This document shows positions 869-62,199 of a stretch of 64,000 nucleotides of DNA, in pieces. Location of the stretch: NCBI GenBank assembly GCA_950295325.1, contig OX485807.1:14099001-14163000 (forward strand), written 5' to 3'. How positions within the stretch are numbered: position 1 is the first letter of the stretch; every line of letters starts with the position of its first letter. Below the pieces are notes generated by a model that searched no databases, was not told the DNA's origin, and saw nothing but the letters and a program-made list of their open reading frames with translations. This stretch comes from Polytrichum commune (taxonomy: Eukaryota > Streptophyta > Polytrichopsida > Polytrichales > Polytrichaceae). The position numbers were made by a program, and so were the translations under genes.

Positions 869-2040
869 AGTCTTAGACCCTTGAATCGTTAGTTGATGCA
901 CTTTGAAGTAGCATGTTACTTCACAAAAATATAAAAAGAGTGAAATGTTAGTCTTAGAAGTACCATGTTGTAAGAGGCTAGGATGTGAGTTGTTATTGTG
1001 TTTTTACCTTCGGAAGGATTTGAGTGAATGAGGATAGGTAAGGAGAACTTGGATTGAGTAGTTAGTGAGTAGGCTAGTACAAATGGATGGAGACAACCAA
1101 AATGACTCAAGAGGCAAGTGCATTCGAATTGGGATGAATGGAGGATCACATGGAGCGCACAAGTGGACCACCTCATCATGGCCACTTAATGGGGAAGGCC
1201 CAAGGAAGAATGCAAGGTGGAGGATAAGCAAATTCTCAAAGCACCAATCAAATCACGAGTTAAGCATCGTGGTTTGAATTAAGTGGTGAGCGACGATTTG
1301 GGAAAGTAAGGGGAGAAAGTTATGGCGGCGGAAAGCGAAGGAGGCTAAGTTTGGGTTGAAGCATCCCAAGTTTGGTAAAGTGTGGTAGGTAGAAAGCCAA
1401 GGCTAGTTAAATGTTCGAATTAGGATCCTTGTTGATCATTTGAGGGAGGAAGGCTTAGAAGATAGGATTGGCGCCTACTAAGTAGGAGGAAATCTCAAGG
1501 GCTTATCGTGAGCCTTGAGGGTGCTCACCCCCTCAAGCTTACTATATAATCCCTCATTCTTCCCTCACTCATCCTCTCTTTCCTTTGTGCTCCAAGGCAC
1601 CCCACGAGTTATAAGTGTGGGTGTGGGAAGCCATATTGGAGCACATGTGTGTGCTTAGTTTTTAGTTTGAGAGCCAAGGCTTGTTAGCCTTGAAGAGGGC
1701 TTGACCTCTTGGTAGAATTAGTGTTGACGTGAAGGATTTTAAAGTTAATTCATGATTCCAATTTGTGGTACTTAAAGTTCATGTTTTGAATACACGTGGT
1801 TGCAAGTTCCATGTTTAAGAGTTGAGCACTTGATGTTGTGATGAGTGCAAAAATATACTTGTGTGGATTAGTTAGTCTTAGTGAAGTTAGGAAATTCTCT
1901 CTCCCCCTCTCCTCTCTAGGATTTTAGGATTTTAGGATTAGAGAAGAATTGTGTGATTAGAAAGGGGTTGTTAGTAGAATTAGGGAAATTAGGTAGGAAG
2001 ATTAGTTAAGGACTTGAATAATTAGTGAGGTAGTTGGGGA

Positions 2041-2320
2041 TTACAACTACAAAGTTGTGGGTTCATGAAGGAGCTGGGTTTATGAAGGAGCTGGGTTTGT
2101 TTAGTTAGAAAGTAAAGAGCTGGGTTTATGAAGGACCTGGGTTTGTTTAGTTAGAAGCTAAGGAGCTGGGTTCATGAAGGAGCTGGGTTTATGAAGGAGC
2201 TGGGTTTGTTTAGTTAGAAGCTAAGAAGCTGGGTTTATGAAGGAGCTGGGTTTATGAAGGAGCTAGGTTTATGTAATTAGAAAGTAAAGAGATGGGTTCA
2301 TGAAGGAGCTTAGTAGATAG
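2041..2320. repeat. Degenerate tandem repeat (ggagctgggtttatgaa motif)
   Basis: The motif aggagctgggtttatga recurs about ten times, sometimes head to tail at about 21 bp and sometimes separated by tttgtttagttagaagctaa, which gives a higher-order unit near 60 bp. The copies have point differences. It shows no coding potential and looks like a minisatellite. Confidence 0.8.
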
Positions 2321-3095
2321 CCTACCTAATTAGCTCATAGACAAGTAGTTAGTTACATTATGCTAGTTAGTGTTATGTGTGGCTTTCACAAGTAAATGTA
2401 TTTGAGATTGACTATAGAGAATAGTGTTTTTTTTTTAACACTTGCATCCTCTCTTTAAAAATAAACCACGTGCACAATTTAATGGAGAATGTGGAACACT
2501 CTCGCGATGGCAAGACAAAGGAAGCAAAGACCAAAGGTGCGAGGGAGAGATTGACATAAGTCACATAAGTATTTCTTAATACTTAAAGGCTTATGTACGG
2601 TATGGAGACACCAAGTGAGACCTCTTATAGTAGCGATACGGAATACACAAGTGATAGTTCAAGTGGTAGTATAGAGTCAACGGCACGGACTCCATTTAGG
2701 AGAGGGATATCCTTAAGGGCTTGTGTAGCTAAAGCAGCCGGATGGACGTTAGAAGCAAACAAAGACAAAATAGCACCCGAGCATAAGGAGGTTAAAATAA
2801 CATAGTTAACTTGTGCATTCTCCACATACGTATTGAAATCGTACATTGAGTTGTTAAAAGTGAAATTCCAGTTAAATCCAAGACCACTTGAAGGGTGAAC
2901 CTTGCACTATGGACTCATCCAAGTCCAAATCCAATACCGCGGAGGAATGTGAGCCCAAACCCACTACTCGGACTACGGACGCTTAAGGGTGGGGGGTTTG
3001 GCCTCACACCCTCTCGCATGACAAGGACCTCTACATGACCATCTGCCCCCTTGCGGCTCTCTCCTGCCCTGCAGTGAGGCGTGCGTGCTACCTTT

Positions 3096-3127
3096 CACTA
3101 TAAGAAACCCGTGTTTTTTGTGATGTT
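3096..3127 (+). repeat. CACTA left terminal inverted repeat
   Basis: This 32-bp terminus starts CACTATAAG and is identical to the reverse complement of the right end. A TTT target copy sits immediately outside at 3093-3095. It would be the cleavage and recognition end for the transposase. Confidence 0.95.
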
Positions 3128-4214
3128 TACAAAAAACGTCTACGTCAACATGGACATCTACATTTAAACAGAGAACATCTACAAGAACGTCAGAATGAAC
3201 GGGACGTTGTAAACAACAACTTAATGTTAGTAGGCAAACGTGGGCATGTTGGCGGCCAGACATGTGGATGTTAGCCACCAAACGTGGGGATTCGGTCGTG
3301 AAACATTGGGATGTTAGCAGTTTAACGCGTAAATGTCTGGGGTAACTTGAGCGTCGATGGCGACATTATGTAGGACATGGAGAGAGGAGTCCAAGTGCCA
3401 CGTCGGCAAGGGCTCCCGGTTTTGACTATGGGGAAGACTTTGAAATTTGGTGCCACCTCAGCTACAACGCTGCCCAGCACCAAAAAAGTGAAGTGCGCGG
3501 GCAGGTTTTCAAAAATCCAAAAAATATATAGTTTTTTTTTAAAATATATATATATTTTAATAATAAATTCCGGGGTTGGTCCGCATTCAATTTCAATACT
3601 TGAAAAATGTACAATTTTCATATTTTCATGTTCTTAGTGTTATTATAAAAAAATCGAGAATGATATGGAATATTTCAACATGGCAATGACCATGGAATAT
3701 TTTAGGCTGACTTGGAATTTGGTTTACACATAGATTTCATCAAATTGTTATTTCAAGATCCTTTTTCTGCGTGGCCAACGATATTCCATGTCAGCAACGC
3801 TGACGTGTTGCACAGTGTCAGGGTCAACGTCACTTGCAACATTGGCCGTGGCAGGAACTGCATGCCAATTACACGTCCTAGTAAATGTTGTATCCAATGT
3901 CCATATGGACGTCTAGGATGTGGTTTTGGGTGTACACTTGAACGTCCGCAGTAGCAATGTTACGTTTTCTGGCCATGCGTGCCAATGTTGCCCATGGAGA
4001 CATTGGCAACGCTGTTGGTGATGTGCCTAGTGGCGTGCACGATGGCATTGCCATAAACATGTTGATTTTAGGGTGCAGTTTGAGGGCATGTATTCAACTC
4101 TGACATGTATTATACTGAGGCATGGTGAACATCTGAACATGCTATCATTATCACGTCCAAACTAGTGGACATACATTATCATCAGCAAAGTGATTTGTCT
4201 CTGCATAGAAAACC

Positions 4215-7200
4215 CTATTGGTATTCCTCTTCTTGGGTCTCCGTAAGCATTGTGTTTGTTGCCGCTGTAACGTAGCTGCCCCCAACGGCCGCGGGTCTTC
4301 TGAGCGGTTCCGTTTCTTGTATTGTTGGCTGAAGACCACGGAAGTCGTCGTCATTCCCCACAGCAATGACGTTGGCAGCGGGTTGAGGTTGATGTATCGG
4401 CAGACGTCTCCCCCTGACGTCCGTGCGGAGCACAACCTTCCATCCGCGTCTCGTCGGATCATCAGATAGGAATACTTGTTGGCAATGCAGTGGAAATGCG
4501 AATGAATCGGCGTGCACCCTGCTGTCCATGTGGTTGAAGTTTGCCACCGTGAAGCCGTACTTGTCGCGTTCAATGTTGGAGAAACGCGCGTCACGTGTTG
4601 CCTTGATCCACTCACACAACAATACCGTCGTGCAGTGATTCCGGTAATCTAGCTCAAGTATCTCTTCGATGAAGCCGACATGCTCTGCGGTTCTCTCGAT
4701 GGGCTTCCCGTTGCAAATCCCCCAACGGAGCTGTTGCGTGAAGGCTACCACCACACATGAGTCCCTAATTACGAGACCGCCTTCCGAACTGCGAACACGC
4801 AAGTGCATTCCGAAACAATACATTTGTCTGTGCGATGTCGCGTACCGCTCGGGCGGACAAGCGTATTGTATGACGTCTTCGTGTAAACGCTCTCCTGAGC
4901 GTTGGGCGTGTTGCACACGCTCCTTCAACCAATCTGCGAAGGGGGGGATGTCGCTTAGGTCGGGAGGGTATGTCACAGGACGGCTTGGGCGAAGACGTCT
5001 TGAACGTCGCCGAAACGCCTCCCGCTCTTCCCACCTTCGAGCCTTTGCAACAATGTATTCCCTGCGTAGGGGTCCACGTATTTAGTGTCCGCAACATGCA
5101 TGCTACTGGATCTCGTCACATAAATTGCTGTCAACGTGTACTGTGCCCTGAAATCGTTGGCTCTCTCTTCTGTTATCCAAGGCGTATGGTTTGACATCTG
5201 TTGTGACATGCAATATTTAAGGACTCGTCATTCAGCATGCGCATGATGTCAATGGACACGTCCAGTATGACAGTATTATGTGGTTCAGGGCCTCACTCTC
5301 GCCACAGTTCCAGGCACGGCGCATTGTCGATGACAAACGCATGGGCGTACGAATGCACCTCATCGGACAACTTGCGCATTGTGTGTTCGTTTCGCCTCAA
5401 TACCTCATCGTTCATGGTTGCATCTTCATTGGGATCCCATACACGGTGCGTTGTTGCCCGATGCCGTTTCATGTATTCCGTGCAGAAGCCAAGAGTGTCC
5501 GATTGCCGATATCCTTCCGCTATGCTCCCTTCCGGGTGTGCGTAAGCCCTAACGTAGTCTTTCAACGTCTTCATGTATCTTTCAATCGGATACATCCACC
5601 TGCAGTGGACAGGTCCGCAAATGAACAACTGCTCCACAAGATGTACCGGAAGATGTGCCATAATATTCAAAAACGTCGGTGGAAACTCCTTCTCCATCAC
5701 ACATGTTGCCATTATGACGTCGCACATGAGATCCCCCTCGGCGTCTGCTCGGACCTCTTTCTCACAAATTCATTGAAACACCCGACACAACTTGATGATT
5801 GCCATGCGCACTTCTTCATCAAGGACATTTCGTACAGCCACCGGAAGTATCTGCACCCGGCATTTGGATTTCCCATTCAATCATTCAATCATATAGGTGT
5901 CATGCGGGTTGTCTGCTCTAGCATCGAGGATGTCTATGTTCACATGAGAGGTGTTTGTGCCAGCAACTACTCTCAAGAGCGTACATGTACGACGTATGTT
6001 AGAATGTCTTACTTGCTGCATGAGTACATGGTAGTCATGTGACTTCATGTACTGCAGCTTGCCATCTTCTAGTCGTTTATGAATGGCCCCAACATAGTTT
6101 GTGGGAGTGCGTATACTTGACACAATGGACACAAACTCGCTCCTCTCCACTGGCTTCAGTATGTAAGGGGCGTGCGGCATGTAATACTGATCACCCTGTC
6201 GTCGTGGAGGCTGCAACCAAATCTCGGGTCGTATGTTCAAGTCCTGCACATCTTGACGACTTCCCGGGCTGTCATTCATGCCGAACAAAGTTTTCAATAT
6301 GTTTTCACATAGATTCTTCTCGCAGTGCATCACATCCAAGACGTGTCGGATCTTCAAATGCTGCAAATTATACATCATGTGCAAGTTACATGTCTGACAT
6401 GTCAGGACAAAAGGCTAGGTTGCATCGTCTGACCACTGTTGCAACACGCGTTTTTCCCATTGTTAAAAAAAACATGGCTAAAATTACTAGAAACATTGCA
6501 AATGTTAACCTGGATGTGCCTTCGACGAACCCCATGTTCAATAGTTATTGTCCCCATGTTTGGAAACTAACATGCCAACGTTTTTTTACAACATCACGTT
6601 CATTTTGATGTTCATCTACATTTCATAGTCCAACATGTTCATGTCCACAAAAACGTCTACGGTTTTTGGTGACGTCGCAAAAACAGTGGTATCTTATAAT
6701 GGTTGATCAACGATTGCGGTGTGGGGTGTTCAATACAACACCTGCCAGTACGGAAGTTCAAATAAGGCGCTCAGGCGCTTCACGCGAGTGTTGTGGACAG
6801 GGTCGCTCTTCACTCCTTTTGTGCCACCTAGATCTAGGTATGACTGTCGCCATGCGGCGTATTTGATCACATCTGATCCTGAAACGCATTGAGGCCTTGT
6901 CCTTGTCTCGCGTTCCCCATTAAAGCGCATGTTCCGTCGATATGGATGGTGTCGAGCTAGATATCTACGTATTCATCCATACACAATCTTTGAACCTTTG
7001 GTGCTTCGGTTTGGGCGCAAGTCTCCTGTTTTTGCACTGCGACCATCCGTGTCGGGGCCGCAGCAGGGACATCCTTTATATCCCTTGCAACACAGGCCTG
7101 AAATGAGCCCGTACGCCGGAAAATCGGAGATTGTCCACATCAACATCCCCCTCATGTTGAACTATCGACATCCTGCGGGTTTGGAAAAATCAAGTGTTGG

Positions 7201-8514
7201 CACACCATGCCACAATTCCTTCAGCTCATCCAACAAGGGCCGTATGTACACATCGATGTTTCCGTCATGCGGTGACCGCTTCCCCGAGATCAGGATGCAT
7301 AGTGAAATGAAGAATTTCTTGGTTACAAACCAAGGCTCTAGATTATATATCAAGATCAACACTGCCCACGTGGACCAGTTTGTGTTGCTCAACTTGAACG
7401 GATTGACACCATCCAATGCCAAAGCTAGCCGCATGTTTCTCTTCTCGCTTCCAAAGTTGTTGAAAGCAACGTCGTTGTCAATGTGCTTCCAGACGGGACT
7501 ATCAACGACTGATCGCATGATGCCGTCTGCGCTGACATGTTTTGTGTAACCAATCAACATGCCGGCAATCTCCGGTGAACGCCACATACGTTTCAGCCTG
7601 GGTATTAGTGGGAAGTGCCGAATCACTTTGCTCGGGATATTATTTGTGCCTTCCATCCATCGTGACTTTGAACATTTGGGACAAACGTTTAATTCTGCGT
7701 GGTCGCCGTCATAGAGCACACATCCGTCCGGACATGTATGGATGTTGTTGTAGTTCATGCCCAACTTGTGGATTGTCTTCGCCGCTGCGTATTGACTGTG
7801 TGGTAGCTTGTTGCCCTCAGGGAGCAGGTCTTCCGACAAGTACCGCAGCAATTCGGATGTGAAGTTGTTGCTGACCCCAAAGACGACGCACATATTCATT
7901 ATGACGATTGTGGCGAAGACGACGCTGCACTTTGAACCTGTGTACAAAGGGGTGGTGCATTGCCTGTACAATTCCTCCAATCCCTCCACGGTGTCACTGT
8001 CCATGTCGACCTCCATGTCCACGTCGGTTTCAAGGGCGTACTCCCTGTGCAACGCATCACCTCGGTCCAGAGCCTCCATCACCTGCCTGTGGACATCATG
8101 GTACGGGTCGAGTGGCGTGTCGGCGCTGCCAACTGGATAGGAGCTCTGGACATTTCCGCCGACATCGGCGTTATCCTGAATGTCTGGATTGGCGTCGACT
8201 ACATCATCGTCAAATGACATGTCCTCGACCCAGATGCCATCCGGAGGGTATCCATCGGGAGGATCGCCGCCTATGATAGACTTTGTCAAAAACGGATCTC
8301 GGCCAACCGAGGTGTGATGCTTTCTGACAACATAGATGGATTTACGCAGGCCTCCGTGACAATTGACACATGGGCATGGGTAGGCCACAATGTTCTGCTC
8401 TGTTGCAACTCGAAGCTCTGTCTGCAGGATGAGATCGCCAAGGGGAATATGTCGTTCTGTGCGTCCGTCCTCCGTTATTCGGATGCGAGCACCGCGAGGC
8501 CGTGAATCGGCCAT
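4215..8514 (-). pseudogene. CACTA tnp2-type transposase, multi-exon, broken by in-frame stops
   Basis: In family members this protein cuts the element ends. The start is taken at ATG 8514 (MADSRPRGAR). An N-terminal segment with a CPC/NC cysteine motif is followed by the tnp2 core (HTCPDGC, CPKCSKSRW, WKHIDND, MWTISDFPAYG, CPCCG, ELPYWQ, RHVLDVMHCEKN), then DUF4218-like (LPVHLVEQLFICGPVHCRWM, YPIERYMKTLK) and DUF4216-like sequence (VIRDSCVVVAF, CEWIK, QVFLSDDP). Two introns restore known junctions: 6361-6741, which joins ELPYWQ to HLKIRHVLDV, and 5851-6012, which joins HVLMQQ to ILPVAVRN. A third, about 5196-5294, is likely. Damage includes in-frame stops at 7162-7164, near 6948 and near 5770, and a 1-nt frame change near 4975. 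The copy is probably not autonomous. Confidence 0.88.
6434..6701. mobile_element. Probable nested mini-CACTA remnant inside a transposase intron
   Basis: Within the 381-bp intron, a segment begins CACTGTTGCAACACGCG and ends cttataatg. Both ends are degenerate matches to the termini of the host CACTA element. Between them are typical subterminal words (catgtccacaaaaacgtc, gtgacgtcgcaaaaac). The flanking trinucleotides do not match, so the insertion is old or has been edited. The surrounding splice sites still join the conserved transposase motifs in frame. Alternatively this is simply a regulatory stretch rich in the element's motifs. Confidence 0.4.
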
Positions 8515-8605
8515 CTCCACTGTATCCACGTAGTTGATTATAAAAAAGTACTCATACCAGCAGTGCCAAATTGATTCCGCCGTATTCATGTACTAATTGT
8601 ATTCA

Positions 8606-21960: not shown

Positions 21961-24770
21961 CTATTGGATAATTTCTTGATTTTCTAGTTTTTCTTTAATG
22001 AAGTAATGTTGTGCATCGATATGTTCGGTGCGAGAATGGTGTGTGAGATTCATTGCAAGTGCTATGCATCCTAGATTGTCGCACATGATAGATGTCAATC
22101 CTTCTTGCACATATCCCACATCCGCCAAAAGTTGTATAAGCCAAACCGTTTCTTTTGTACAATGGCTAGTGGCCATGTACTTTGCCTCCATCGTAGACAA
22201 TGCAATGGTTGGTTGTTTCTTGCATTACCACGAAATGACTCCAACACCAACAAAAAAAACATACCTTAGTGATGGATCGCCGGTCATTTACACCTCCCAC
22301 CAATCCACATCGCAAAATTATCTCAAGACAATATCCTTGCCTCTGAGGCATAATTTGAAGTCCAAAGTGTCTTTTAAATACCTCATGATGCGTTACACAT
22401 CCATCCAATCCGGGTGGACCAACCCTCGATATGAATTGGCTCATCGTATTTACTGCAAATGCAATATCAGCCCTTGTGGACACCATTGTATATATGAGAG
22501 ATCATACCCCGGCCTTGTATGAAACACCTTCCATTTCCTTTTGCACAATCCTAAATTCTTCATCTAGAAATTATAATAATAATCTTAAATTCACATTGCA
22601 CAAAGTTCCAACATGTTTGCATTATTCCATGTTGAAATGCTTGAGGACCTCCTCGATGTAGCTCCTTTGGTTCATGGTGATGGTACGAGGCTTTTCTATT
22701 CCTCTCAAATTCCACTCCTAAGCAACAATGTAATTATCCGATATTGCTCATCTCAAAAGAAATCTCAAGCTCTGATCTGAACCACTTCAATTGGTTACAT
22801 TGCTTGCCAATGTGATACAATCATCCACCAACAAATATTCACATATTTGTTTGACGTACAATGAATGATCTATTTGGCTCTTACAAAAGCCCTCGTTAAT
22901 GAAGAACGAGTTGATACGGTAGTACCACGCCTTTGGCGATTACTTAAGTATGTACAAAGCTTTCTTGAGTTTGCACACAAGGTATTATTTTTCTTCTTGT
23001 ATAAAATCCTCCGGTTGATCCATGTAAATATCCACCTCCAATACTCCAATCAAAGACGTTGTCTTTACATCCATTTGGTGGATCTTCCAATCCATGGTCA
23101 TTCCTAAATGCGAGAATGCATCCAATGGTGATAAACTTCACCACGGGAGCAAAAGTCTCTTTGAAATCCACTCTAGCCACTTTAAAATATCTATTTGCTA
23201 CTAACCGAATCTTATATCTAACAATTTCACCAAATGCATCATTTTTGGTGGAAAACAACCATTTGCATCCTACACTTGTTGAGGCGTATACGGGGTGAAC
23301 ATTTGCTTCTCAATGTCATAATCCTTGAAAAAATAATTGAATGCCTTGGAAACGAATTCCCCGCCATTGTCCAACCAAAACGCCTTGATTTTTTGCTTTG
23401 ATTGTATCTCGATAAATGCCTTGAACTTCTTGAACTTCTCAAATCACTCCCCTTTGGATTTCAACGCATACAACCACACTTTCTTTAAGAATTTATCAAT
23501 GAAGTCCCGGAATACCTTACACCATCCACGAATGTGGTTCGTTTGGGGCCACACACGACGGAATGCATGATACCTAAGGATTTGGTCGCTTGCCTCCTCT
23601 CCATCCTCCCCTCCCAGTTTGAAAACGCAACCCTATATTGTTGGCATTTGATGCAGGCTTCTCAAAGCAACAAGGATGTGGAGCAAGAAAGTTTGTCAAG
23701 ATTCATGTCACTCACCATGTTTTGGACCGTAAGAACACCCTTCTCGTTCAAATGGCCAAAGCGGCGATGCCAAAGCTCGAGTGCATCAACTCCCGTTGAA
23801 GATTTCTTTTGCGTGGTGCAATTACAGTGGTTTTAGCGTTGCAATATTTTATAGTGTATTCGTTTAGGTTGAATTGGACATTCAATCTGTTCGACACAAG
23901 TTTGCTCACCGAGAGGAAATTGACATGCAATTTGGATATGTTAAGCACATTTTTGAAATAAGTCCGGTTGATTTACCTTCCACGATTGGTTCCATAATGA
24001 TAAATTCCATTATGATGGCTTCGACAATATTATTATCAGCCAAATGCATATTGTGTGTAGCGATTACTTGATATATGTCAAATGCAGCCTTATGCGAAGT
24101 CATATTTTGAATGTTCCTAAATTCATGATCCACTTACACACGCTCTTGGAATTAGCTTTATTTCGCATTACAAATGCGCAGTTGTCATCATCCTTCATAA
24201 TTCTTGCCCCTTGTATTTGTTTTAAATATATAAAAAAACGCGCAATGTGGCTTGGTTTGCCGCCATAGAAATACGATTTTGCATTTTGGAGCGAAAATGA
24301 GTTGTCGCCTCTGCTTTGTCGCAACACCATGGCGGCATCATCACATTGAGATAGTTTCTTCTTGCGCTTCGACATCTCGTGCATCAAATACCCCATCATA
24401 TAGTCCATCGTAAGTTCCTTCATCCACATCGTCTCGAAGGCAATGATCAAGTATTCGTACGATGCCAACAAGCTCTCGAGCAAGGTCATGACAATATCTT
24501 CGTCTCTCATGGGTACCTCCAAACAAGTAAGTTCATATGTGAACGCCTTGATTTTGTTGACATTGATCAATAAGTCATCGGCCTCTTCAATCTTGTACGT
24601 TTAAAACTTGTGATGAATAAAGAGGATGTTGGACAAATTCTTTATCTCATAAATGTTGCAAAGGGTCGTTTACGCCTCTGCATGTCCTTTGCAACTTTTG
24701 ATTTGCACAAGTTGGTTGTCCGTCAAATCGAGGTTGATAATGAACATGGTATTTTTGATGCATTTTGAGT
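21961..24770 (-). pseudogene. Copia gag-pol remnant
   Basis: From 5' to 3' on the minus strand: a gag-like part at about 24100-24570 (TLLESLLASYEYLIIAFET, and a segment ending KSVCKWIMNLG); integrase-region fragments at 23239-23948 (KLHVNFLSVSKLVSN, the GAG-pre-integrase type; WTMAGNSFP); RT at 22944-23258 (YKIRLVANRYFKVARVDFKE then TFAPVV); the RT end at 22166-22486 (STRADIAFAVNTMSQFISR); and RNase H at 21961-22200 (MEAKYMATSHCTKETVWLIQ, DNLGCIALA, RTEHIDAQHYFIKEKL). The frame is broken many times. Confidence 0.85.
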
Positions 24771-37760: not shown

Positions 37761-40700
37761 TTACCACAGCTGCTGTCGAGTGCCTGCTGTTTGCGACCAT
37801 TGCAGCAGGTCTCTACTTTGTGTCACTTTGGTCTCATGGTTTCCAATTCCCTGTCCACAAACTGGACACTCTTCACTGCCCACATGCATGACCTGCAATA
37901 ACATCAACAGAAACAAAAGAGGTTCAGTCCCCCACCCTCTCCAGTGGCCACCATACAGGATAACCATGAAGTTTCCCTAGAAGTTATTGAAAACAGATAG
38001 CCGTCAATCAGAGGCCACACCTTCAAAACACACTGGACGCAAAAAGTGTGGTTGCATTCCAACTGAACAGTGTCTCCTGCATATTCTGCAATCATGACAT
38101 TTTAGGGTTAGATATCCAAATAAATGCCCAATAAGTCACCCATAGATCATTTCCCACAACTATCAGATTGCAATGTCCATACCCCAGAACAGCACCTTTA
38201 GAATAAAGAACGACAAAGACATGAGCTCAATAGTGCATGATACAGTGAACCACCAATACCTGATCATTCCCAGCTAAACAGAGGCCCCCTAAAGCATGGA
38301 TAACAAAACCACAGCCACAACCACCATATGATGACATGCTTGTGAGGTCTTAGGCCTCCACTGACGGAATGGATAAGACCACTACATGACACATAGCATG
38401 GTGAGGACAATACCCAGGCAGATGCAGCAGGTGAGAGAATGAGCAGCAGCTATGGCTGCTGTGTGCCCCACCTGCGAACCCTGCAAACTCAAGCTTTTCA
38501 TCTTCTCCGGCAGCGAGAATACCTTCTGCTTGCTTGTCCCAAGTGGGCTTGTGAAGGGACTATCTGGCAGGTTGTGTCCATTTCCATTACCACTGCATCA
38601 TCCATATTCATTATAAATGTCAGCATCTTCTAATCCAGACCCAACTTACCCTAGTACAAGCACAAAGATAGTTTCCCTGCAGCACAAGGGGGCTTCTATT
38701 ACCTACCCAACAATATGCAACTTCCTCCAAAAGTACCAACATAGCAATGGAGAGGCAGGTGTTCGCAGTGTAGCAAATCTACCTTGACTTGCTGCCAAAT
38801 ATTTCAGTGGTCTGGTCACTATCATCACCCTGATCACCTGCATCCAGCACATCAAGCAGGTAACCAAAGGAATTGCTCGGGTGGAACTGGGACAGACCTG
38901 CAACCAGCCACACAAGAATAAGACGACATGCAAGGTATGCAACCCTTTCAAACACATACATAATCAGCTGAAGAGGATTTGAAGCTATACCCTCACTGGT
39001 TAATCCAAGATCATCCGCAGAAAACCCAGCATTTGCCAAAACTCGATTTTGTGCTGCCACAACAGCCATAGTTGCTTCTGCCTCAGCACGGCGGCGCTGT
39101 ACATCAGCCAGCTGTAGCTCAGCCAGGCGTCGGCGTTCAAGATCCAAAACCTGTTCTTCCTCCTCAAGCCGACGTGTAAATGCCTCTTCCTCTTCATAAA
39201 ATTTGGTCACTGCAGATACAAAAATCACCAACAAGTGAGACCATTGGCATTCTTCCACTAACAGAATCTCATTAAGAAGTCTACTCCACAAGAGCATCAA
39301 GCTTTGGTGCTCAGATTCATATTCCATCTAATTTAGTTGCAACAAGAAGTTTGAACTGTACAGAGAGTCTGATTACAAACTTGACATGAAGTTGGAATGA
39401 ATAAACATAAAACTTGTCTTACCTGCATGAAAGTCGAAATCCTTGCCATCAATACTACGGCTCTGTACAAAGCGGGCATGATCTGCCCTCTCAGAATATT
39501 TTCTGCCAGAACACACCAGCTATCAGCATAGCCCACATACTGATAATTGGAGATAATAACACATCTAATGTAACCCTGACATACCTTGGCACGAGACACC
39601 AGAAGCACAAGTGAAATCCATGAAGGCAACGACATACATTTTCAAGGCAAGTGCCTCCAGTACCTGTCACCATGTTTGCCTTTTTCTCTGTAGGGCTTAA
39701 CAAGAACACGGGCTCCACAAATGTAGTGTGGATTTCCTTCGGACAAAATTGCCTTAACAGTTTCTGAATATACAAAAGTGACAAAACCAAACATCCGCTT
39801 CTGCTGATAAGGGATCCGCACATCTTGCACGGGACCGTAGGCCCTGGAAGCCACCAAAAACACCAGGACGTATGAGCATGAGAGAGACAGAAACCGCATT
39901 TTGAGGATTTGCGTCACACACACACACAGCATGAAAACAATAGGTAGGTGCTTTGAACCTGAAGTGTGATGTTACATCCTCTTCAGTGAAAGTGGATTCA
40001 GCAGGAAAAGTAAGATAGATTTGGCGAGAAGATGGGTTGATCCCACTTAAATCCTCCCCGCGGTGGTCGGAGCGATACGCAGTAAAGCGATGTGCATCCT
40101 CCGCAAGCACAACTGCATGTTGACCATGAGGCCTGTTCAAACACCCAGCAGTGTGCTTGTGTCTGAGTAAACCACTGCCCACACCCACTGTAAGAAGGGT
40201 ACCCTCCTCCCTGCTGACTTGAGCTCTTTTTTTCCCTCTAACCACTCTCGGATCTACAATTGGCTGACCCCTCAGACAGACATATAACCCCAGCCCCAAT
40301 ACACACAACAAGCAGGCTCTGCTGCACACATCTACCACTCCTTAGCCCTGGCCTCATTACCCTTACCCTCCTCACCCAGAACCCAGCACATCCAGAAGGG
40401 CCATAGTACTGAACTCAATGCAACTCATCATCAACATAGGTACATGAAGAAATCATTGGAGAGTCAAGTCAATGCAGAGCGGCAACGGCTTGCTGCAATG
40501 GCATACTGTGAACACTTACCAAACAGTGAACACTGATAATCCTTCGATCTGACTGGCGTGGGAGGGCATAAATTCAGTCAATACACAGCAGCCATCAAAG
40601 CACAATGTCTCCTATCAGAAACTACTTGAACAAGCATCATCATCATCATCACAAACAACCAACCAACAAGCTACCAGCAGCAGCAGCAGCTAGGGACCTC

Positions 40701-42191
40701 CAAACCCACGCAGAATGAATGGCATTGTTTGCCTACCTCAACAAAATCATTCCCCTGTGCAACTCAACCACCATAACCCAACTTTTCCTAGACTGTGAGG
40801 CAATGTGCGCAGAATGTCCAACGAGGAGTAGAAGGAGACCATGATTTCAGCTGGATTTGGAACGAGGGCAAAGTCTTAAGCCTGAAGATTCCATCAACAC
40901 AAACTATGGATGATGGTGGCCTTTGATGCCATGATGGTACAGCGGAATGGAATACAGTGGAATGTAATGTAATGGAACGTAATGAGATGATGATGATGGG
41001 TTACAAGATGCGATGGTGATGATGCCACAGCAGAATGGTGATCCCGTTTACAACAGAAAATTTGAGGGACGACAGTGCGTACCGATCAATGAGGGTAACG
41101 GTGTTCTTCAAGCGGGCGAGCAGCTTGGTGAGGCTATAGCCTGCTTTCCCGTGACGCTGGCTTTCGGTTAGGTAACCCTCCGCTTGAAGTGTTTTCCCAA
41201 ACCGTTCATAGTACAACTGAGGGAGAGATGCTATGGAAACAGGAGCACGTCGCCCCCGCAGAAGCTCCTGCAGCTCAATTTCGAGACGCTCTAGGGATCC
41301 AGGGGCCATTCCATTGTCATCAACTCGAAGCTCCCTCCCCCCGTTGCCATTGCTAGAGGCCGGTGACCCCGAGCTTTCCCGCATGGGCCCATGTAAGAAA
41401 CGGCAGTTGCTGCCATGCTTGCAGTAGCCACGAGCGAAGTAGAGACATGGCTTCCAAGCTAGCGCAGGACCGAGATCGGGCGGTGAGGAGCCGTTGTTGT
41501 TGATGATGTTAATGTTGTCCACCACAGGGGATGCGCGGCTACTGCTGGATCGAGAATGCAGAAGTTCCTTGCTGCTGTTCAGGAACGCGTAAGTCTCCGG
41601 GTAGAAGTGGTCCGAAGCAGCCGCTACGGCTGCGTACATTCCCCCACCACGCAACGAGCTTTGCTCCACCGCATCACTTAGCAAAGCCAGGTGGTCATGT
41701 AGCGGCAGCTGGTCGTGGAGAAAGAGCTGCTGCTGCTCATGTGTATGGCTATGGCTATGGCTATGTTGCTGCTGCTGCTGCTGCTGCTGGAGGGCTGCTG
41801 CAAGCTTCACCTCGTGCAAACTTGGGGATGACAACACATTGGAGAAGCTGCCAAAATCGTGATCCGGAATATACAACGGTGCAGGACGGGCTTGCTGTTG
41901 CTGTTGCTGTTGCTGCTGTTCACGTACCCCCCCTCCTCCTCCTCCTCCTCTTAGCCCTCCTGCAACGGGGACTGTGTCCTCCCCCAAGCTCCCCAGGCTG
42001 CCGAGCCCCAGCTCCTTCTTCGCCTTGCCCACCATCGCCTGCACGAGTGCGTCGGAGCCGAGTGCCAGACGCAGCATCTCCTGCTCGCCGTGCTCCTGCA
42101 GAAGCAGGTGCAGCATGATCTTGCTCCCGACCTCCGGCTCCAACGCTTGCACCCTCCCGTACACAATCCGCGTGGCCTCATACGGATCCAT
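37761..42191 (-). CDS. CCCH zinc finger - OST-HTH/LOTUS - RRM protein with C-terminal RING finger
   Basis: Nine predicted exons (minus strand): 41083-42191, 39959-40132, 39664-39843, 39423-39502, 38991-39209, 38783-38897, 38414-38592, 38021-38085, 37761-37892. All introns are GT-AG. The exons sum to 2253 nt, an open frame of 750 residues. Start [13 protein letters not shown] matches plant CCCH-RRM proteins; an in-frame ATG at 42242 would add 17. Seen: Gln tracts; CCCH finger C-x7-C-x5-C-x3-H at about 247-266; OST-HTH/LOTUS-like domain at about 299-370; RRM at about 403-480 ([18 protein letters not shown]); coiled-coil [15 protein letters not shown] at about 515-587; family motif HNLPDSPF; and a RING C3HC4 at 681-719 ([17 protein letters not shown]). 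It probably binds RNA; the RING suggests ubiquitin ligase activity (inference). The last two exons are the least certain, because exon 7 could read through to a stop at 38382-38384. Confidence 0.85.
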
Positions 42192-43219: not shown

Positions 43220-45540
43220 AGGGTACTAGGTTTAGGCACTCCTCAGCCACAAGATTTCGAACCTGGGACCGGCTCCCCCGGGGCCAAGGATTGCACTGCA
43301 CCGTTTCGTCCAGGGTATCGGTCGGTGTGTCTGGCCGGGTATCAAAATCCTCAATCCAGTAGAGCGCTATATATGTGGACTCAAACGAAATTTAGGCATC
43401 TGATTGTGCAAGCCTTGGACCCCGGGACCCAATCCGTTCAGGTCAAGGAATTGCATTGTCTGTTGTGTGGGTATGTAGCGGTTGTCCTAGGTATTGGTCA
43501 TGGTACATGGACGGGTATCAACATCTTGATCCGGTAGGTGTCACAACCTTGAATACCATTAAGGTGTCATTGATTAGACTCTCTCTCTATCTCTCTATCT
43601 CTCTATCTCTATATATATATACATGTGGGCTCGAACGGATTTAAGACATATGGGCGTGCAAGATTTCGAACCCGGGACCCGGTCAACTCATGTGTATTTT
43701 CTAGTCATTTGAACTAATGTTGTGCGGGTATCTAGGGCCATCCCAAGTATTGGTTAGGGTACGTGGACGGGTATCAAACTCTCAACCGGGTAGGTGTCAC
43801 AAGCTTCAATACCATTAAGGTGTCGTGGATTAGGCTCTCCATGTATATGGACTCAAACGAAATCAAGGTCTCTGAGTGTGCAAGAGCTCAAACTTGGGAC
43901 CCGCTTCGTTTAGGTCGGTCGAGAATCGCAGTGCTTGTTGTTTGTGCTATTGATATGTGGGTATCTAGGTTCTCAACCAAGTATCGGTCATGGTATCGAA
44001 TCCTCGATCCGGTGAGTGTCACGACCTTCAATACCATTAAGGTGTAGTTGATTAGGCTCTCTATACATATGGACTAAAACGAAATTCAAACATTTGGGTG
44101 TGCAAGATTTTGAACTTAGGATCCACTCCGGTTTAGGAATCGTAGTGCCAGTTGTTCGAACCAAATTCACTATATTCGTTAATTTGAGACTTTCTCTTGT
44201 CTCAAATTAATATATGGACCACAACAACATGGTCTAATGTTTGGGTTGTCCTACCTAAACCATCTTGATATGAGTTCTTAATTGGATTCTTGATATGAAC
44301 ACCCGCTTCAAAGTATTTGCATCTTACAACATTCTTCCAAATCTGTGTGATTTTATCCATGTTCTTATATTTGTAACTGTATCAAAATGCCAAAAAAGTC
44401 CCAAATTAACGAATACAGTGATGAATGTTGTGTGGGTATCTAAGTTCAGCCCATGTATCAGTGAGGGTATATATTAGGACCTATCACGTACTCGATCCAA
44501 CAAGTGTCACAAATCTCATACCAATAAGGCATCATCGAGGCGCTCCATGTGATTTTGCGAGAATCGCATGGTTGAAAATGCAAGAACAAAGGCCACAGTT
44601 TGTGAAAATGAGGAAGGTTCAACCATTGTTGTGTGGGTATCTAGATTCGTTATGGGTATCGATTAGGGTATACTACGAGTATGTAAATGTATGGCATGGT
44701 AGGTGTCACAACCTACAATGCCAACAAGGTTCTTCACAAAGATGCTCTACGTGATTGAGATGAGAATGGAGCATTTGAAGTGCAAGTTTTGATCTATAGC
44801 AGGAGGCAGTTTGTGAAAATAAAGAAAGTTTGAACCAATGTTGTGTGGGTATCTAGGTCCCACCTTGGTATCAGTTAGGGTATGTGTATGTGTATGTAAT
44901 ACCCGAGCTAGCGGGTATCACATCCTTCAATACCAATTATTAGGCGCATTGCAATGGTCTAAGGTAAATGTGTCTAGATCGAACACAACAATGATCTAGA
45001 CACCTGTATTTGAGTGGTATGTCATCAGATGTGGATCTAAGAATTGGCAACAAAAAGACATGTGTTCAAAAAAGATTGAACTACATGCTTAGAATATGCT
45101 AATCATTTTACTTTCAGTAGTCAAGGTAATTTGGGGGACCTATACAACCACTCAATGAGCACAAGAATCTTCACTTTAATTTCGATTGAAATATTCATGA
45201 TGACCTCCAAAAATCATGAAGCAAATGGTTGCAAGCACTATTTGGATTTAATAATTATTGTGCATTGATTACGTGTTTCATATCCTACAAGAAGCATGTG
45301 CAAAGAGAGAAGTATCCATCTAAGGCACATCTACCTTATATGCACTCGGGCAAAAAACCAAGCATCTTAGAGTACAACATTTTGAACATGGGACTGACTC
45401 CACTCGGGCCTAGAATTGGTGAGTTGGTTTGTTGAACTAGTGTTGTGTGGTCAAACCTTGGTATCAATCATGGTACGTGTATGGGTAATAAATACCCAAC
45501 TCAGTAGATGTCCCATCTTTCAAGACCGTGAAGGTGTTTT
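43220..45540. repeat. ~200-260-bp degenerate tandem array upstream of the CCCH-RING gene
   Basis: The phrase gttgtgtgggtatctagg recurs near 43460, 43722, 43958, 44428, 44630, 44838 and, weakly, 45435. Each copy is followed by ggtatc...gtgtcacaacctt, caataccattaaggtgtc, then tatggactcaaacgaaat and gtgcaagatttcgaacccgg. Spacing is about 200-260 bp, with one double interval. It is non-coding. A (ct)n/(ta)n microsatellite lies at about 43579-43622. Confidence 0.75.
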
Positions 45541-58122: not shown

Positions 58123-59631
58123 TTATGTCTCTCTCAGAATAGCAGAAACAGTGGTAGTAAAGATAGAAGTGATACCTTGGAGTAGTCTGATTAGGTCAGT
58201 TACCTTGAATTTGATAGCTGGAAAAGTTGTGGTAGATAGGGTCGAAGTTACCAACTGTATCAGTTTCTGTTTTCTGAATCCATTGCTAGACAGAGTATTT
58301 ACCAGATTTTGGATTTCCAGCATTGCCAGTTGGATATCACTAGATAAATATAATATGGGGATAGTCTGTGATATAACAACGTTATAAGCTTGTTTTACTG
58401 GCCTACATGAGTTAAACTTGATATACTGCGTGTATGTAAAAGGGAGGTCACGCCGTTTATCAAATTTTTGGAGGGTGAAAGTTCCAAGATTTTCATTGGA
58501 GACATCCACCAAAACATTCATAGAGTGTGCTTTCACACCATGATTAGGATATATCGATGAGAAATTAGACACTTCCGTCTTAATTTCTAAGATGTGTAAC
58601 GGGTAAATCCAAAATGGGTTAGACCCGGTTCTTGGTTGTTTAGGGTCGAGAAAAATTTGCGCTTCTCCAACATTGATCCAACAAAGGTCATCAATGTATC
58701 TAAAGGCGTGAGCAAACTTAGCCATGATGTCCACACGTCCAAGTTTAGCAAGTCTATGAATAAATTTAATTTCGTATGACAATAGGTATAGGTTGCACCA
58801 TAATGGTGAACAAGAGAATCCCATAGGGATGCCTAAGTCTTGTTTCCAAACCCTGTTGCCCAATCGTATGTGACAATTAGCAATAAGCCACTTTTGTAAC
58901 TCCAAAAACTTTGTTACTGACATGTAGGTCCAGTTACCATAGTTGGGGCATGTGGAAGCCCATACAACTTTTGAGGTAACCCCTAATGTGCTAGATTTGA
59001 ACCAAAAGCTTGGTTCACTTCTAGGATGCTTTCTTTTGAAATTTTTAACTCCGAGTGAAGTTATGAATTCCATAGCTTCAAATAGAGTATCATGGCCATT
59101 TATCAGGATAGTCTCAAAGCACCTTGTAATATCCGCAACATAAAGGTTATGGATATTGCTCGGTAGATTGATGCAAAAGTCATTTATAGAGTCGATGATC
59201 CAGTAAATGGATGTGTCGACATGTAGGAAGTTTTTATATCCAATTGTAGTTAGTTTAGCCCATTCCTTAACGTCTTCTAGGAGGGCCATAGTTGCAATGG
59301 TGATTAGAGTAGCAATGTTAACAAAGATAGAACCAAATGCATTGGTTATCCATCTATATTTACGTTTGTGAAATTTGTATATGGCCATTATGTAAGGTAG
59401 TTCCTTACCATGGACGGGTAATTCCACTATAATTTTATGCATTGTCATAAGAAGAGTATTGGTAACTTCTTCAATTGACAACCATTTGCCTTGACTCATG
59501 CATGGTATAAAATCCGGACTATTAAGTCTATTCAAGGCTTGCATTCGTATATGACTAATACATATGAAGCAAACATTGTTTGCAGCCTTATCTAGGCCAG
59601 AAATGTAGATATTTTTGAGGATCCAATTCAA
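58123..59631 (-). CDS. Reverse transcriptase of the Penelope-like element
   Basis: Copies element RNA into DNA. The open frame extends upstream to about 59651 (YLFSENVVNDELNWILKNIY). In order: DKAANNVCFICISHIR, which matches the Penelope DKA...C..Y block; IYKFHKRKYRWITNAFGS, RT fingers; motif A YVADITRCFETI with the catalytic Asp; motif B GIPMGFSCSPLWCNLYL; motif C FRYIDDL with the paired Asp; then LQKFDKRRDLPFTYTQYIKF and RPVKQAYN, equivalent to the conserved post-RT K...S/RP..K block. All three catalytic aspartates are present. No GIY-YIG follows. The first codon of the longest frame is TTG, so this part is probably not translated separately but joined to the upstream frame near 59651-59678. 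Confidence 0.85.
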   Translation of the reverse strand: MNWILKNIYISGLDKAANNVCFICISHIRMQALNRLNSPDFIPCMSQGKWLSIEEVTNTLLMTMHKIIVELPVHGKELPYIMAIYKFHKRKYRWITNAFGSIFVNIATLITIATMALLEDVKEWAKLTTIGYKNFLHVDTSIYWIIDSINDFCINLPSNIHNLYVADITRCFETILINGHDTLFEAMEFITSLGVKNFKRKHPRSEPSFWFKSSTLGVTSKVVWASTCPNYGNWTYMSVTKFLELQKWLIANCHIRLGNRVWKQDLGIPMGFSCSPLWCNLYLLSYEIKFIHRLAKLGRVDIMAKFAHAFRYIDDLCWINVGEAQIFLDPKQPRTGSNPFWIYPLHILEIKTEVSNFSSIYPNHGVKAHSMNVLVDVSNENLGTFTLQKFDKRRDLPFTYTQYIKFNSCRPVKQAYNVVISQTIPILYLSSDIQLAMLEIQNLVNTLSSNGFRKQKLIQLVTSTLSTTTFPAIKFKVTDLIRLLQGITSIFTTTVSAILRET

Positions 59632-59642
59632 CTCATCATTGA

Positions 59643-60344
59643 CTACATTTTCTGAGAAAAGATAAGGTTGTGAGTACCTGAATCCGTATTTGTATCAAGT
59701 AATAAGACCCGGCATCGTTCCCTAACCTCCTTGCAGGCGTGTTCCATATTCACCATATGAGTAATGTTAAGAACCTGGCAAACTTGTAAAAAAGTGTCAT
59801 ATACAACTTGGATAACTTCAAAAATTAAAGTGGGTCTAAGAGGTATGTGGTTCAAACCCATCTTTAGTGCATGTCTCAAGCCTTTGTGTTGGACAATGGA
59901 AATGTCCATTGTCCTTACATGACCCTTGCCATTTTCACTTTCTTGTTCATTATCAATTGCATCCAAATCAATGAACCTCCATAATCTGTTAGAGGAATGA
60001 CAAATGCATTTAACCTCTTTCCCCATGAGCTCAGTAATTTCAAAATCCTTGAAAACCATGCCTGGTTTATAACAAAACATAGACATGTTGGGGTGATAGC
60101 ACCATGCAAACATGATATTAAAAAGAGCTGGTACATATTGTGGTATGGATAGGAGTATGAAAATTTCTGAAAAGAATTTTTTCATATGTATCCATTCCAA
60201 TGCTCTGCTGCAGTAAAAAACATGTACGATACCGGTAAAATCTGAGTTTTTTCTTCTAGTGATGACTTTCTTACCAAGAGTGTTATATGTGAGGTGTCTT
60301 TGGTCATCTGTCAAGACAAGCAAAACAGTATGTCTTAGCAACAC
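59643..60344 (-). CDS. Penelope-type N-terminal region upstream of RT
   Basis: It contains CYKPGMVFKDFEITELMGKE, a short Cys motif (KCICHSSNRLW) and GHVRTMDISIVQHKGLRHAL. The last resembles the block before RT in Penelope-like proteins (histidine-valine, threonine, then an LR..L..G segment). A good 3' splice site (ttgcttgtcttgacag, about 60306) lies just upstream, so the real start of this exon is probably there (DDQRHLTYNTLGKK). The frame changes relative to the RT over about 26 bp near 59652-59677. Confidence 0.7.
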   Translation of the reverse strand: MLLRHTVLLVLTDDQRHLTYNTLGKKVITRRKNSDFTGIVHVFYCSRALEWIHMKKFFSEIFILLSIPQYVPALFNIMFAWCYHPNMSMFCYKPGMVFKDFEITELMGKEVKCICHSSNRLWRFIDLDAIDNEQESENGKGHVRTMDISIVQHKGLRHALKMGLNHIPLRPTLIFEVIQVVYDTFLQVCQVLNITHMVNMEHACKEVRERCRVLLLDTNTDSGTHNLIFSQKM

Positions 60345-60442
60345 TGATTGCTTTATCTATTCACTCTATTAGGTATGTATTGCAAAGCAAGAAAACTACC
60401 TAATCAGTGAATAACAACAAAAAGTACATAGAGTAATCTGAT

Positions 60443-61189
60443 TTAGACTTCATCATCCCACAGTAAAACCCTTGCTTTTAGCGGGGATGAGCTGGGTCTG
60501 TGACTGCCCTGTAATTCCAGGCTGGGAGTACCGGCTCCAGCTGGCGAGTTTTCGGTGAGGCTAATAGTTCCATTGTCCGGGGTAGCAGCTGGGCTCCCCC
60601 AGAGTGACGATAGTCTGCCAGGGGACTGCGTGGCATCGTTAGGGTTGCGGCTACTGCGACCTCCTCCCCGTCCTCGGTATGCTCGGCCGCCACGGACTGA
60701 GCCACTGCGGCCACCTGCATTGCTTCTGCCGCGACCTCCTCTAATATTTCTCTCTGATGGTGACGAATTCAAGTTGAATTTATGTCGTTTGTAAGGAGAG
60801 GGTGCTTGGCTAGGAGATCCAGGATGTGCTAAAGAGAACTTAGGTCCCTTAAGTAATCTCTCAATCTTGCTTGCTAATGGAGTGTCTGTGATTTCCATAA
60901 GTAGTCTCTGATTGGGATTTTCAGAGAGTTGTATGGCGGCATTGATCATGTGCTCTCTTGTGATGTGGAAAACAATTGCTGCTTTAGCTGCCACTCTTGC
61001 TGACTCTCTCATCCAAATCATGAAGGCAGCAAGTCTAGCAATAGCGGTAGGGTAATTAGGAAAGAAGATCTCTAACTTGTTGACCATTGTCCAAACCGCG
61101 TGATCAAACCAAATAATGGATCCCTTACATCCATTAGTGGCTCTAGGATTACAAAGACATCGCATATAGGGTCTTTGCACATTCCACAT
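60443..61189 (-). CDS. RGG-rich region of the Penelope-like element
   Basis: The N-terminal half is mixed and partly helical (GCKGSIIWFDHAVWTMVNKL, ARVAAKAAIVFHITREHM). The C-terminal half is a basic, glycine/arginine-rich stretch (RGGRGRSNAGG, RGGRAYRGRGGGRSSRNP) typical of nucleic-acid-binding RGG proteins, followed by an S/P-rich tail. It is in the same frame as 61220-62179 and separated from it only by a TGA. I know no standard domain for it. A role in RNA packaging is a guess. Confidence 0.65.
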   Translation of the reverse strand: MWNVQRPYMRCLCNPRATNGCKGSIIWFDHAVWTMVNKLEIFFPNYPTAIARLAAFMIWMRESARVAAKAAIVFHITREHMINAAIQLSENPNQRLLMEITDTPLASKIERLLKGPKFSLAHPGSPSQAPSPYKRHKFNLNSSPSERNIRGGRGRSNAGGRSGSVRGGRAYRGRGGGRSSRNPNDATQSPGRLSSLWGSPAATPDNGTISLTENSPAGAGTPSLELQGSHRPSSSPLKARVLLWDDEV

Positions 61190-61219
61190 CTCGGATAGGT
61201 GCGATTCCTTGCGATTGTG

Positions 61220-62179
61220 TCATGTAGGTAGGTCTTGTTTTGTATGAAGCTTGACTTCTAGAGTAGTACACTTAGCATGATCAAACATGGTAAGTGGGAA
61301 AGCATGTGTGAGATCCATTGGAGCCCTTAACACTCCAATGTTATTCAATGCTTGTTTTTTGCAACAATCTACCTCTTGATCTGTGAATCCTGTCCAAGCT
61401 TGCCACATAGGGATAGAAATAGGAGCTAAGAGGTTTGTGTTACCTATAGCCCACATTCTGTGTTGGTAGTCAACCACAAGAAGCTCCACACTTCGAGATG
61501 GTTTGATCGGTACCACTGGGCCCTTGCTTGTGATCATTGTATTTTTCTGTTTTTCCATTTGGGTTGAGAGTATGCCATCGCAGTATTCCTCCAGCGCATT
61601 TTTGTCAGCATCAGAAATCCGGAGTTTGGCCAGTAGCGGGTGCGTACTGCTGCCTTTGTTCTCTGTCTGCCCAGAAAGAGTTAGAGCAGACTCACTGCTC
61701 AACTCATCTTCATTGGCCAGTTTCAGTGCTTCCTCGACCCGTTGCGCAAGCTGTGCAGACCTGACAGCATCCCTTTCGTCATCAATTATTAGCTCAGACA
61801 GTCTGGACTGCGCAACCCTCAATCTGTTCACCGTTTTCGGCTTGTCTGAGGTAGCTGTAACGAATAGAGAAGTCCATGCTGCGAGATCCAGTGAGTCCAA
61901 CAGCAGTGGACCATGCACACCTTCATCGTCTGCTTCATTGATAACAACGATATCAGATTCTTGAATGAAACTATGAAACTCTGGTACGTCGATTGCTGCC
62001 ATGGTGGTTTGTACCGCCGGTATAGGGGCAGGCAGTGGAGGTCCGTATCCGAGAGAGACCATATCATTACACCATGTTTGTGTTTTTGGATCCGACTGTC
62101 TCACATTGTTTTTCACATGTATTGTTAGTATTCGTAGGTAGCATAGATATATACAAGAATGAATGGTAGCAGCTTCCAC
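61220..62179 (-). CDS. N-terminal region of the Penelope-like element, unknown function
   Basis: 319 codons from the first ATG. Later starts at MVSLGYGPPLP or MAAIDVPEFHSF are possible. It contains acidic segments (IQESDIVVINEADDEGVHGP), a helical charged stretch (RDAVRSAQLAQRVEEALKL) and a hydrophobic block (LLAPISIPMWQAWTGFT) before HAFPLTMFDHAK. It ends at a TGA at 61220-61222, but a GT-AG intron at 61143-61271 (129 nt) would remove that stop and continue in frame into the RGG region. I recognise no domain. Confidence 0.6.
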   Translation of the reverse strand: MEAATIHSCIYLCYLRILTIHVKNNVRQSDPKTQTWCNDMVSLGYGPPLPAPIPAVQTTMAAIDVPEFHSFIQESDIVVINEADDEGVHGPLLLDSLDLAAWTSLFVTATSDKPKTVNRLRVAQSRLSELIIDDERDAVRSAQLAQRVEEALKLANEDELSSESALTLSGQTENKGSSTHPLLAKLRISDADKNALEEYCDGILSTQMEKQKNTMITSKGPVVPIKPSRSVELLVVDYQHRMWAIGNTNLLAPISIPMWQAWTGFTDQEVDCCKKQALNNIGVLRAPMDLTHAFPLTMFDHAKCTTLEVKLHTKQDLPT

Positions 62180-62199
62180 ACTGCTAATGGGTATTCAAT

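Follow-up and report, generated by a model that had tools for sequence, protein, structure and literature searches.

A predicted plant RNA-binding protein of MLLE, CCCH, LOTUS-like and RRM modules ends in a spliced RING finger and may act as a ubiquitin ligase

The window, a stretch of 64,000 nucleotides, carries on its minus strand, from 42191 to 37761, a gene that we rebuilt from the sequence as nine exons joined in phase (Table 1). The resulting frame sums to 2253 nt and encodes 750 amino acids and a stop. An earlier note on this DNA had proposed the same sum, and the positions of exons 7 to 9, the in-phase joins and the zinc-ligand spacing that it gave are reproduced by the rebuilt frame. 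The least certain edge is the end of exon 5, where six of the GT sites that were tried leave the frame open (2070, 2154, 2247, 2253, 2316 or 2319 nt); we took this end as 38991, the option that matches the 2253 nt of the earlier reader, and none of the six touches the RING finger described below. Upstream of the gene, at 43300-44500, one sees by eye blocks of about 200 nt that look like diverged repeats, in which phrases like 'gtcccgggttcgaaatcttgcac' recur. Elsewhere in the window, the minus strand holds DNA transposon remains at 4215-8592 (Transposase_21/tnp2, E 2.6e-34; DUF4216, E 5e-7, at the cut-off), which we take to be of the CACTA type, and a Copia-type gag fragment at 24103-24600 (Retrotran_gag_2, E 6.4e-9). 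The same strand has, at 58126-59694, an open frame that is 523 aa long, matches RVT_1 faintly (E 0.007, below the cut-off) and shows a YIDD motif recognised by eye, possibly an unusual retroelement; for three frames neighbouring it, within 59646-62194, Pfam gave no match up to E 0.1.

Table 1. Exons and domains of the predicted gene, with the second locus discussed in the text (window positions unless another contig is named)
Feature	Position	Strand	Content or score
Exon 1	41083..42191	-	PABC/MLLE, CCCH and most of the LOTUS-like domain; Q/H/S low-complexity stretches by eye
PABC_AtC3H46 (MLLE-type), residues 1-64	42000..42191	-	Pfam E 6.8e-26, 90.7 bits, cut-off 27
CCCH zinc finger, residues 248-269	41385..41450	-	zf-CCCH E 4e-6, 27 bits, cut-off 20.5; also in the genome-wide CCCH search
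OST-HTH/LOTUS-like, residues 300-375	exon 1 part 41083..41294, last residues in exon 2	-	Below the Pfam cut-off (20.9 bits, cut-off 23.8; E 3.4e-4)
Exon 2	39959..40132	-	End of the LOTUS-like domain and start of the RRM
Exon 3	39664..39843	-	Remaining RRM (RRM_1 residues 417-471)
Exon 4	39423..39502	-	From the joined reading frame
Exon 5	38991..39209	-	E/R/A-rich by eye; 3' end uncertain
Exon 6	38783..38897	-	From the joined reading frame
Exon 7	38414..38592	-	HNLPDSPF motif, then first RING zinc pair C681, C684 (38429-38414)
RING-less alternative end	38382..38413	-	Intron 7 donor read through, adding 10 residues before the stop; ORF 38382-38597
Exon 8	38021..38085	-	RING middle, C696-x-H698-x2-C701-x2-C704
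Exon 9	37761..37892	-	RING end C716-P-V-C719 (37892-37857), C-terminal tail, stop TAA
L024	G000:C7:10538000-10545500, 1773-5612	+	CCCH, RRM, OST-HTH and RING in this order, within about 4 kb

The gene appears to encode one protein of about 750 aa with the domain order MLLE (PABC)-CCCH-LOTUS-like-RRM-RING. The part that precedes the RING had earlier been read as a plant CCCH-LOTUS-RRM protein. The CCCH finger and the RRM (RRM_1, E 3.5e-7, 30.4 bits, cut-off 20.7) are borne out by Pfam, with one stretch of each in the protein; the LOTUS assignment is weak, and the N-terminal PABC/MLLE domain had been overlooked. Folded alone with AlphaFold2, residues 1-64 gave a model of four helices with a mean pLDDT of 86.1. 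PABC/MLLE structures (PABPs, UBR5/EDD/HYD) make up 33 of the 46 Foldseek rows obtained with this model, with a probability of up to 0.99 and query-normalised TM-scores of 0.53-0.71, none having an E below 0.001. By its Pfam family match and these Foldseek matches, the N-terminal domain is of the MLLE fold, and in a genome profile search the window gene was the sole match found to the PABC_AtC3H46 family. In the PDB sequence search with the same piece, four matches were obtained up to E 1, none significant: HYD (E 0.34), UBR5 (E 0.49) and two de novo designs; HYD and UBR5 are also among the fold matches. UBR5/HYD is an animal E3 ligase bearing an MLLE and resembles the window protein in this respect, although it is a HECT and not a RING ligase.

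The domain placed between the CCCH finger and the RRM is called LOTUS-like here because its Pfam score lies under the cut-off, because the genome-wide OST-HTH profile search listed four other loci and not the window gene, and because its Foldseek matches to LOTUS structures have an E of 0.62 or worse. The model of this piece reached a pLDDT of 68.9. Oskar LOTUS and TDRD5/TDRD7 lead the Foldseek rows, and LOTUS structures account for 21 among the best 50 of 68 matches, none of the matches having an E below 0.001.

At the other end of the protein, exon 7 closes with C-C-I-C-L at 38414, the first join splits an E codon, and the eight zinc ligands (C681, C684, C696, H698, C701, C704, C716 and C719) have C3HC4 spacing. 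A domain search of the whole predicted protein, which the earlier note had suggested as a check, returned three RING families above their Pfam cut-offs: zf-C3HC4_3 (E 2e-7, 31.2 bits, cut-off 27), zf-C3HC4 (E 6.9e-7, 29.5 bits, cut-off 21) and zf-RING_2 (E 3.2e-6, 27.7 bits, cut-off 27.3). Matches to zf-C3HC4_2, zf-C3HC4_4 and further RING models fell under their own cut-offs. The RING matches span both exon joins.

The sequence between 38592 and 37761 was also searched for every way in which GT/AG intron pairs could yield such a finger, with introns of 60-600 nt, a middle exon of 20-250 nt and exon 7 in its true phase. The real sequence gave six joins with a strict RING pattern, with identical zinc ligands in all six, and 18 joins with a looser one. 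Neither pattern appeared in any of 1000 dinucleotide-preserving shuffles, nor in any of 3477 tests made elsewhere in the window (overlapping segments of 832 nt taken every 100 nt, on both strands and in three phases, those touching 37761-42191 being left out). A chance RING produced by the free choice of GT and AG sites is ruled out by these counts (0/1000 and 0/3477), which address a pattern written with knowledge of the real spacing and say nothing on expression. The same data bear on the view that exons 8 and 9 belong to another transcription unit and that the fusion is an artefact of modelling. We rejected this view, to which we give a very small chance, because the first zinc pair is located in exon 7, beside the HNLPDSPF motif, so that the RING exists only through the exon 7 join; besides, no shuffle gives such a join and the Pfam matches cross both joins.

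The splice signals of the last two introns were compared with those of the rest of the gene. Donors match the consensus at 5, 4, 5, 7, 4 and 6 of 8 positions in introns 1 to 6, at 4 in intron 7 and at 5 in intron 8. The 15 bases preceding the acceptor triplet contain 7, 10, 8, 10, 8 and 5 pyrimidines in introns 1 to 6, and 6 and 9 in introns 7 and 8; all eight acceptors end in CAG. By these donor and pyrimidine counts, introns 7 and 8 do not fall outside what the other introns of the gene show, the donor of intron 7 being at the low end together with those of introns 2 and 5. A donor that fits just four of eight positions, and a retained form that stops at 38382 after 10 residues, are what would be expected if the main mRNA kept intron 7 or ended there, giving a short AtC3H18-like protein, with the RING form minor or regulated. 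However, the donors of introns 2 and 5 are equally weak by the same count, a RING spread over three exons would not be expected to stay intact if unused, and intron 8, lying downstream of the stop of the retained form, should open that mRNA to nonsense-mediated decay. We consider this alternative improbable; the fused reading frame with the RING is, to judge from the sequence, very probably made as protein.

When the RING was compared with PDB chains, 178 distinct sequences were matched at E up to 1. Among the best 60 of these 178, a RING2/BMI1 chimera comes first (1.3e-10), TRIM21 is among the top matches (5.6e-7), and the solved E3 RINGs of RING2, TRIM21, BRCA1 and RNF168 can all be aligned. 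The C-x-I-C-L and CP-x-C surroundings, common to the E2-binding RING2 and TRIM21, are retained. Many active RINGs carry a basic 'linchpin' residue after the last zinc cysteine. In the PDB alignments this residue is Arg in TRIM21 and RING2, whereas the window protein has Gly (CPVCG), so that the activity of its RING may be weak or dependent on a partner. Taken further, the missing basic residue could mean that the RING, though translated, is by itself inactive as a ligase and serves as a zinc-bound module for interactions, through which the protein dimerises or is docked in granules. The best PDB match agrees with such a role in that the second stretch of the chimera (CPICD, likewise non-basic) also aligns, and BMI1 reportedly has little activity alone. 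Against it, the surroundings of the zinc ligands are of the E2-binding type, and active RINGs that lack a basic linchpin exist. We regard an inactive RING as unlikely, although less so than the retention of intron 7, and favour a RING with ligase function.

The genome that was searched comprises 408 Mb in 64 contigs, the window lying in G000:C5. It has three loci with LEAFY DNA-binding domains and 13 matches to dynein heavy chain, 12 of them above the cut-off, which together mark a land plant, probably one with swimming sperm. Two of the LEAFY loci, L022 (G000:C1:40571878) and L023 (C1:62299295), read by eye, differ at a site where one has KMRHY and the other KMRDY followed at some distance by a Cys; this site presumably marks LFY types, and two types in one genome would be odd, for which reason LEAFY gives no call of the lineage.

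No duplicate or pseudogene of the window gene was found in the searches of this 408 Mb assembly. In one search with the gene, 10 of 12 matches were the window gene itself and the other two span the end of the RING and some of the preceding sequence. The four best other loci for the RING share 33-44% identity with it across about 50 residues; by eye, we take three of them to be RMA/RNF5-like and the fourth to lie in an SNF2-type helicase, so that no donor of the RING is named. Outside this genome, one stretch in IMG/VR fitted a pattern and none was confirmed as a relative, and 30 stretches in GTDB genomes were likewise without a confirmed relative, as expected for a virus set and a prokaryote set.

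Genome-wide lists contain 59 RING, 47 CCCH and 4 OST-HTH matches; they miss split or weak domains, the RING of the window gene and the CCCH of the C7 gene described next both being absent. In these lists there is one RING/OST-HTH pair within 10 kb (C7:10541702 and C7:10543447), and no RING/CCCH or CCCH/OST-HTH pair within that distance. The pair belongs to a MEL2-like locus on contig C7 (L024, Table 1) where four domains score above their cut-offs (zf-CCCH_4, E 1.1e-6; RRM_1, 1.4e-9; OST-HTH, 1.1e-10; zf-C3HC4_3, 5.9e-10) and likely form one protein. Like the window gene, L024 has CCCH, RRM and RING on one strand; to these it adds an OST-HTH above the cut-off, the window gene a LOTUS-like domain. 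It differs in that the OST-HTH follows the RRM and there is no PABC_AtC3H46 match, and its RING bears little resemblance to that of the window protein (31% over 32 residues, E 0.015). Taking the two loci together, the coupling of RNA-binding modules and LOTUS with a RING probably occurs twice in this genome, in differing orders and with differing RINGs. No ankyrin repeats were found beside the C7 gene in the pieces scanned, which does not prove their absence.

Of a CCCH-OST-HTH-RRM-RING architecture, which would couple RNA binding with possible ubiquitin ligase activity, the earlier note knew no description. Both types of module do lie in one predicted frame, but the novelty was overstated, for the kind has precedent in a paper of 2010, in rice MEL2 and in the second locus of the same genome. 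Anantharaman et al. (2010), in the part of the article available, tied OST-HTH to ubiquitin-system domains, RING included, in lineages that include plants, and predicted that RNA granules with LOTUS proteins are under regulation by ubiquitylation (PMC2848206). Rice MEL2 is described, in the excerpt at hand, with seven ankyrin repeats, RRM, LOTUS, PscP and a C3HC4 RING, a combination that this 2024 paper places in Poaceae and reports as lacking in Arabidopsis and in other organisms (PMC10838886). MEL2, a plant protein, has in common with the window protein an RRM and a C3HC4 RING at the C terminus, and carries a LOTUS as against the LOTUS-like domain here; it is set apart by its description in that excerpt, which gives ankyrin repeats, lists no CCCH or MLLE and puts the RRM before the LOTUS (PMC10838886). 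In the window protein, the 20 Pfam matches obtained up to E 1 include no ankyrin family, and the LOTUS-like domain precedes the RRM, so that it does not have the MEL2 form. The pairing of RNA-binding modules and LOTUS with a RING is unusual, yet it has relatives such as rice MEL2 and is not new in kind. For the exact order MLLE-CCCH-LOTUS-like-RRM-RING, no description was found in the open-licence literature, among the matches listed and in the portions of text that these provide.

The PABC_AtC3H46 domain, the single CCCH and the RRM are shared with AtC3H46/AtC3H18-type proteins, and the membership of the window protein in the AtC3H46 kind of plant CCCH-RRM proteins is supported by its predicted sequence. 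Arabidopsis AtC3H18, at 536 aa against 750 here, has CCCH, LOTUS and RRM according to the available text (PMC9335048), and the same three domains are reported for BcMF30a/c in the source passages seen. No RING is mentioned for either in these passages, and the word is absent from the main text of the AtC3H18 paper (PMC9335048). The length of AtC3H18 and the absence of this word are what these passages offer on the statement of the earlier note that the family normally ends soon after the HNLPDSPF motif. After heat, AtC3H18 co-localised with P-body and stress-granule markers; in tobacco leaf its LOTUS, its RRM and its N terminus (1-158) each reach foci, whereas the CCCH and C-terminal pieces form none, as far as the accessible sections describe (PMC9335048). 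Were AtC3H18 organised in the same way as the window protein, its residues 1-158 would contain an MLLE-type domain. The switchgrass survey of CCCH proteins, in its available portion, lists RING motifs for some of them and assigns RRMs to three clades, both in one protein not being stated (PMC4352264). In the survey that covers Arabidopsis and rice, the accessible text uses the word RING in the background and in the reference list alone (PMC2267713).

Another likeness is found in animals, and the way in which the poly(A)-binding protein is reached differs. The ligase in question is MKRN1, which has CCCH fingers, is not known to carry RRM or LOTUS, and reaches PABPC1 by a PAM2 motif of its own, where the window protein has an MLLE-type domain. 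In the part of the paper available, MKRN1 is a RING ligase that binds RNA and acts together with the poly(A)-binding protein, binding PABPC1 and ubiquitylating both PABPC1 and RPS10 (PMC6805484).

Taking into consideration these modules and relatives, we hypothesize, with a probability of about 0.6, that the window gene encodes a single RNA-binding protein that acts as a putative E3 ligase on mRNP proteins. The CCCH, LOTUS-like and RRM modules would bind mRNA while the MLLE would hold partners that bear a PAM2 peptide, which would place the protein in mRNPs or in granules of the cytoplasm, like AtC3H18, its relative in Arabidopsis. There the RING would recruit ubiquitin-charged E2 and ubiquitylate mRNP proteins or itself, which could set the make-up of granules, translation or the life of the mRNA. 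If intron 7 were sometimes kept, a RING-less form would result and the ligase part could be switched by splicing. We lean towards this putative ligase mechanism; stated more broadly, the protein is most likely an mRNP-resident E3 ligase or a ligase-like scaffold. A tentative and rather doubtful extension is that the MLLE-CCCH-LOTUS-RRM-RING protein is an old land-plant RNA-granule E3 whose RING was lost on the line to the C3H18/C3H46 proteins of flowering plants; beside it, the same plant would have a separately built MEL2-like CCCH-RRM-LOTUS-RING ligase.

If translated as predicted, the gene would bring together in one protein an MLLE for docking to the poly(A) machinery, modules that bind RNA and, as a head, a ubiquitin ligase. 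The 2010 prediction on the ubiquitylation of LOTUS granules (PMC2848206) would then become directly testable in a plant that is probably non-flowering, where a clean knock-out is conceivable since one copy was found. The finding also hints that RING-bearing LOTUS proteins, known in the MEL2 form from the available part of its description (PMC10838886), may have counterparts far outside the grasses.
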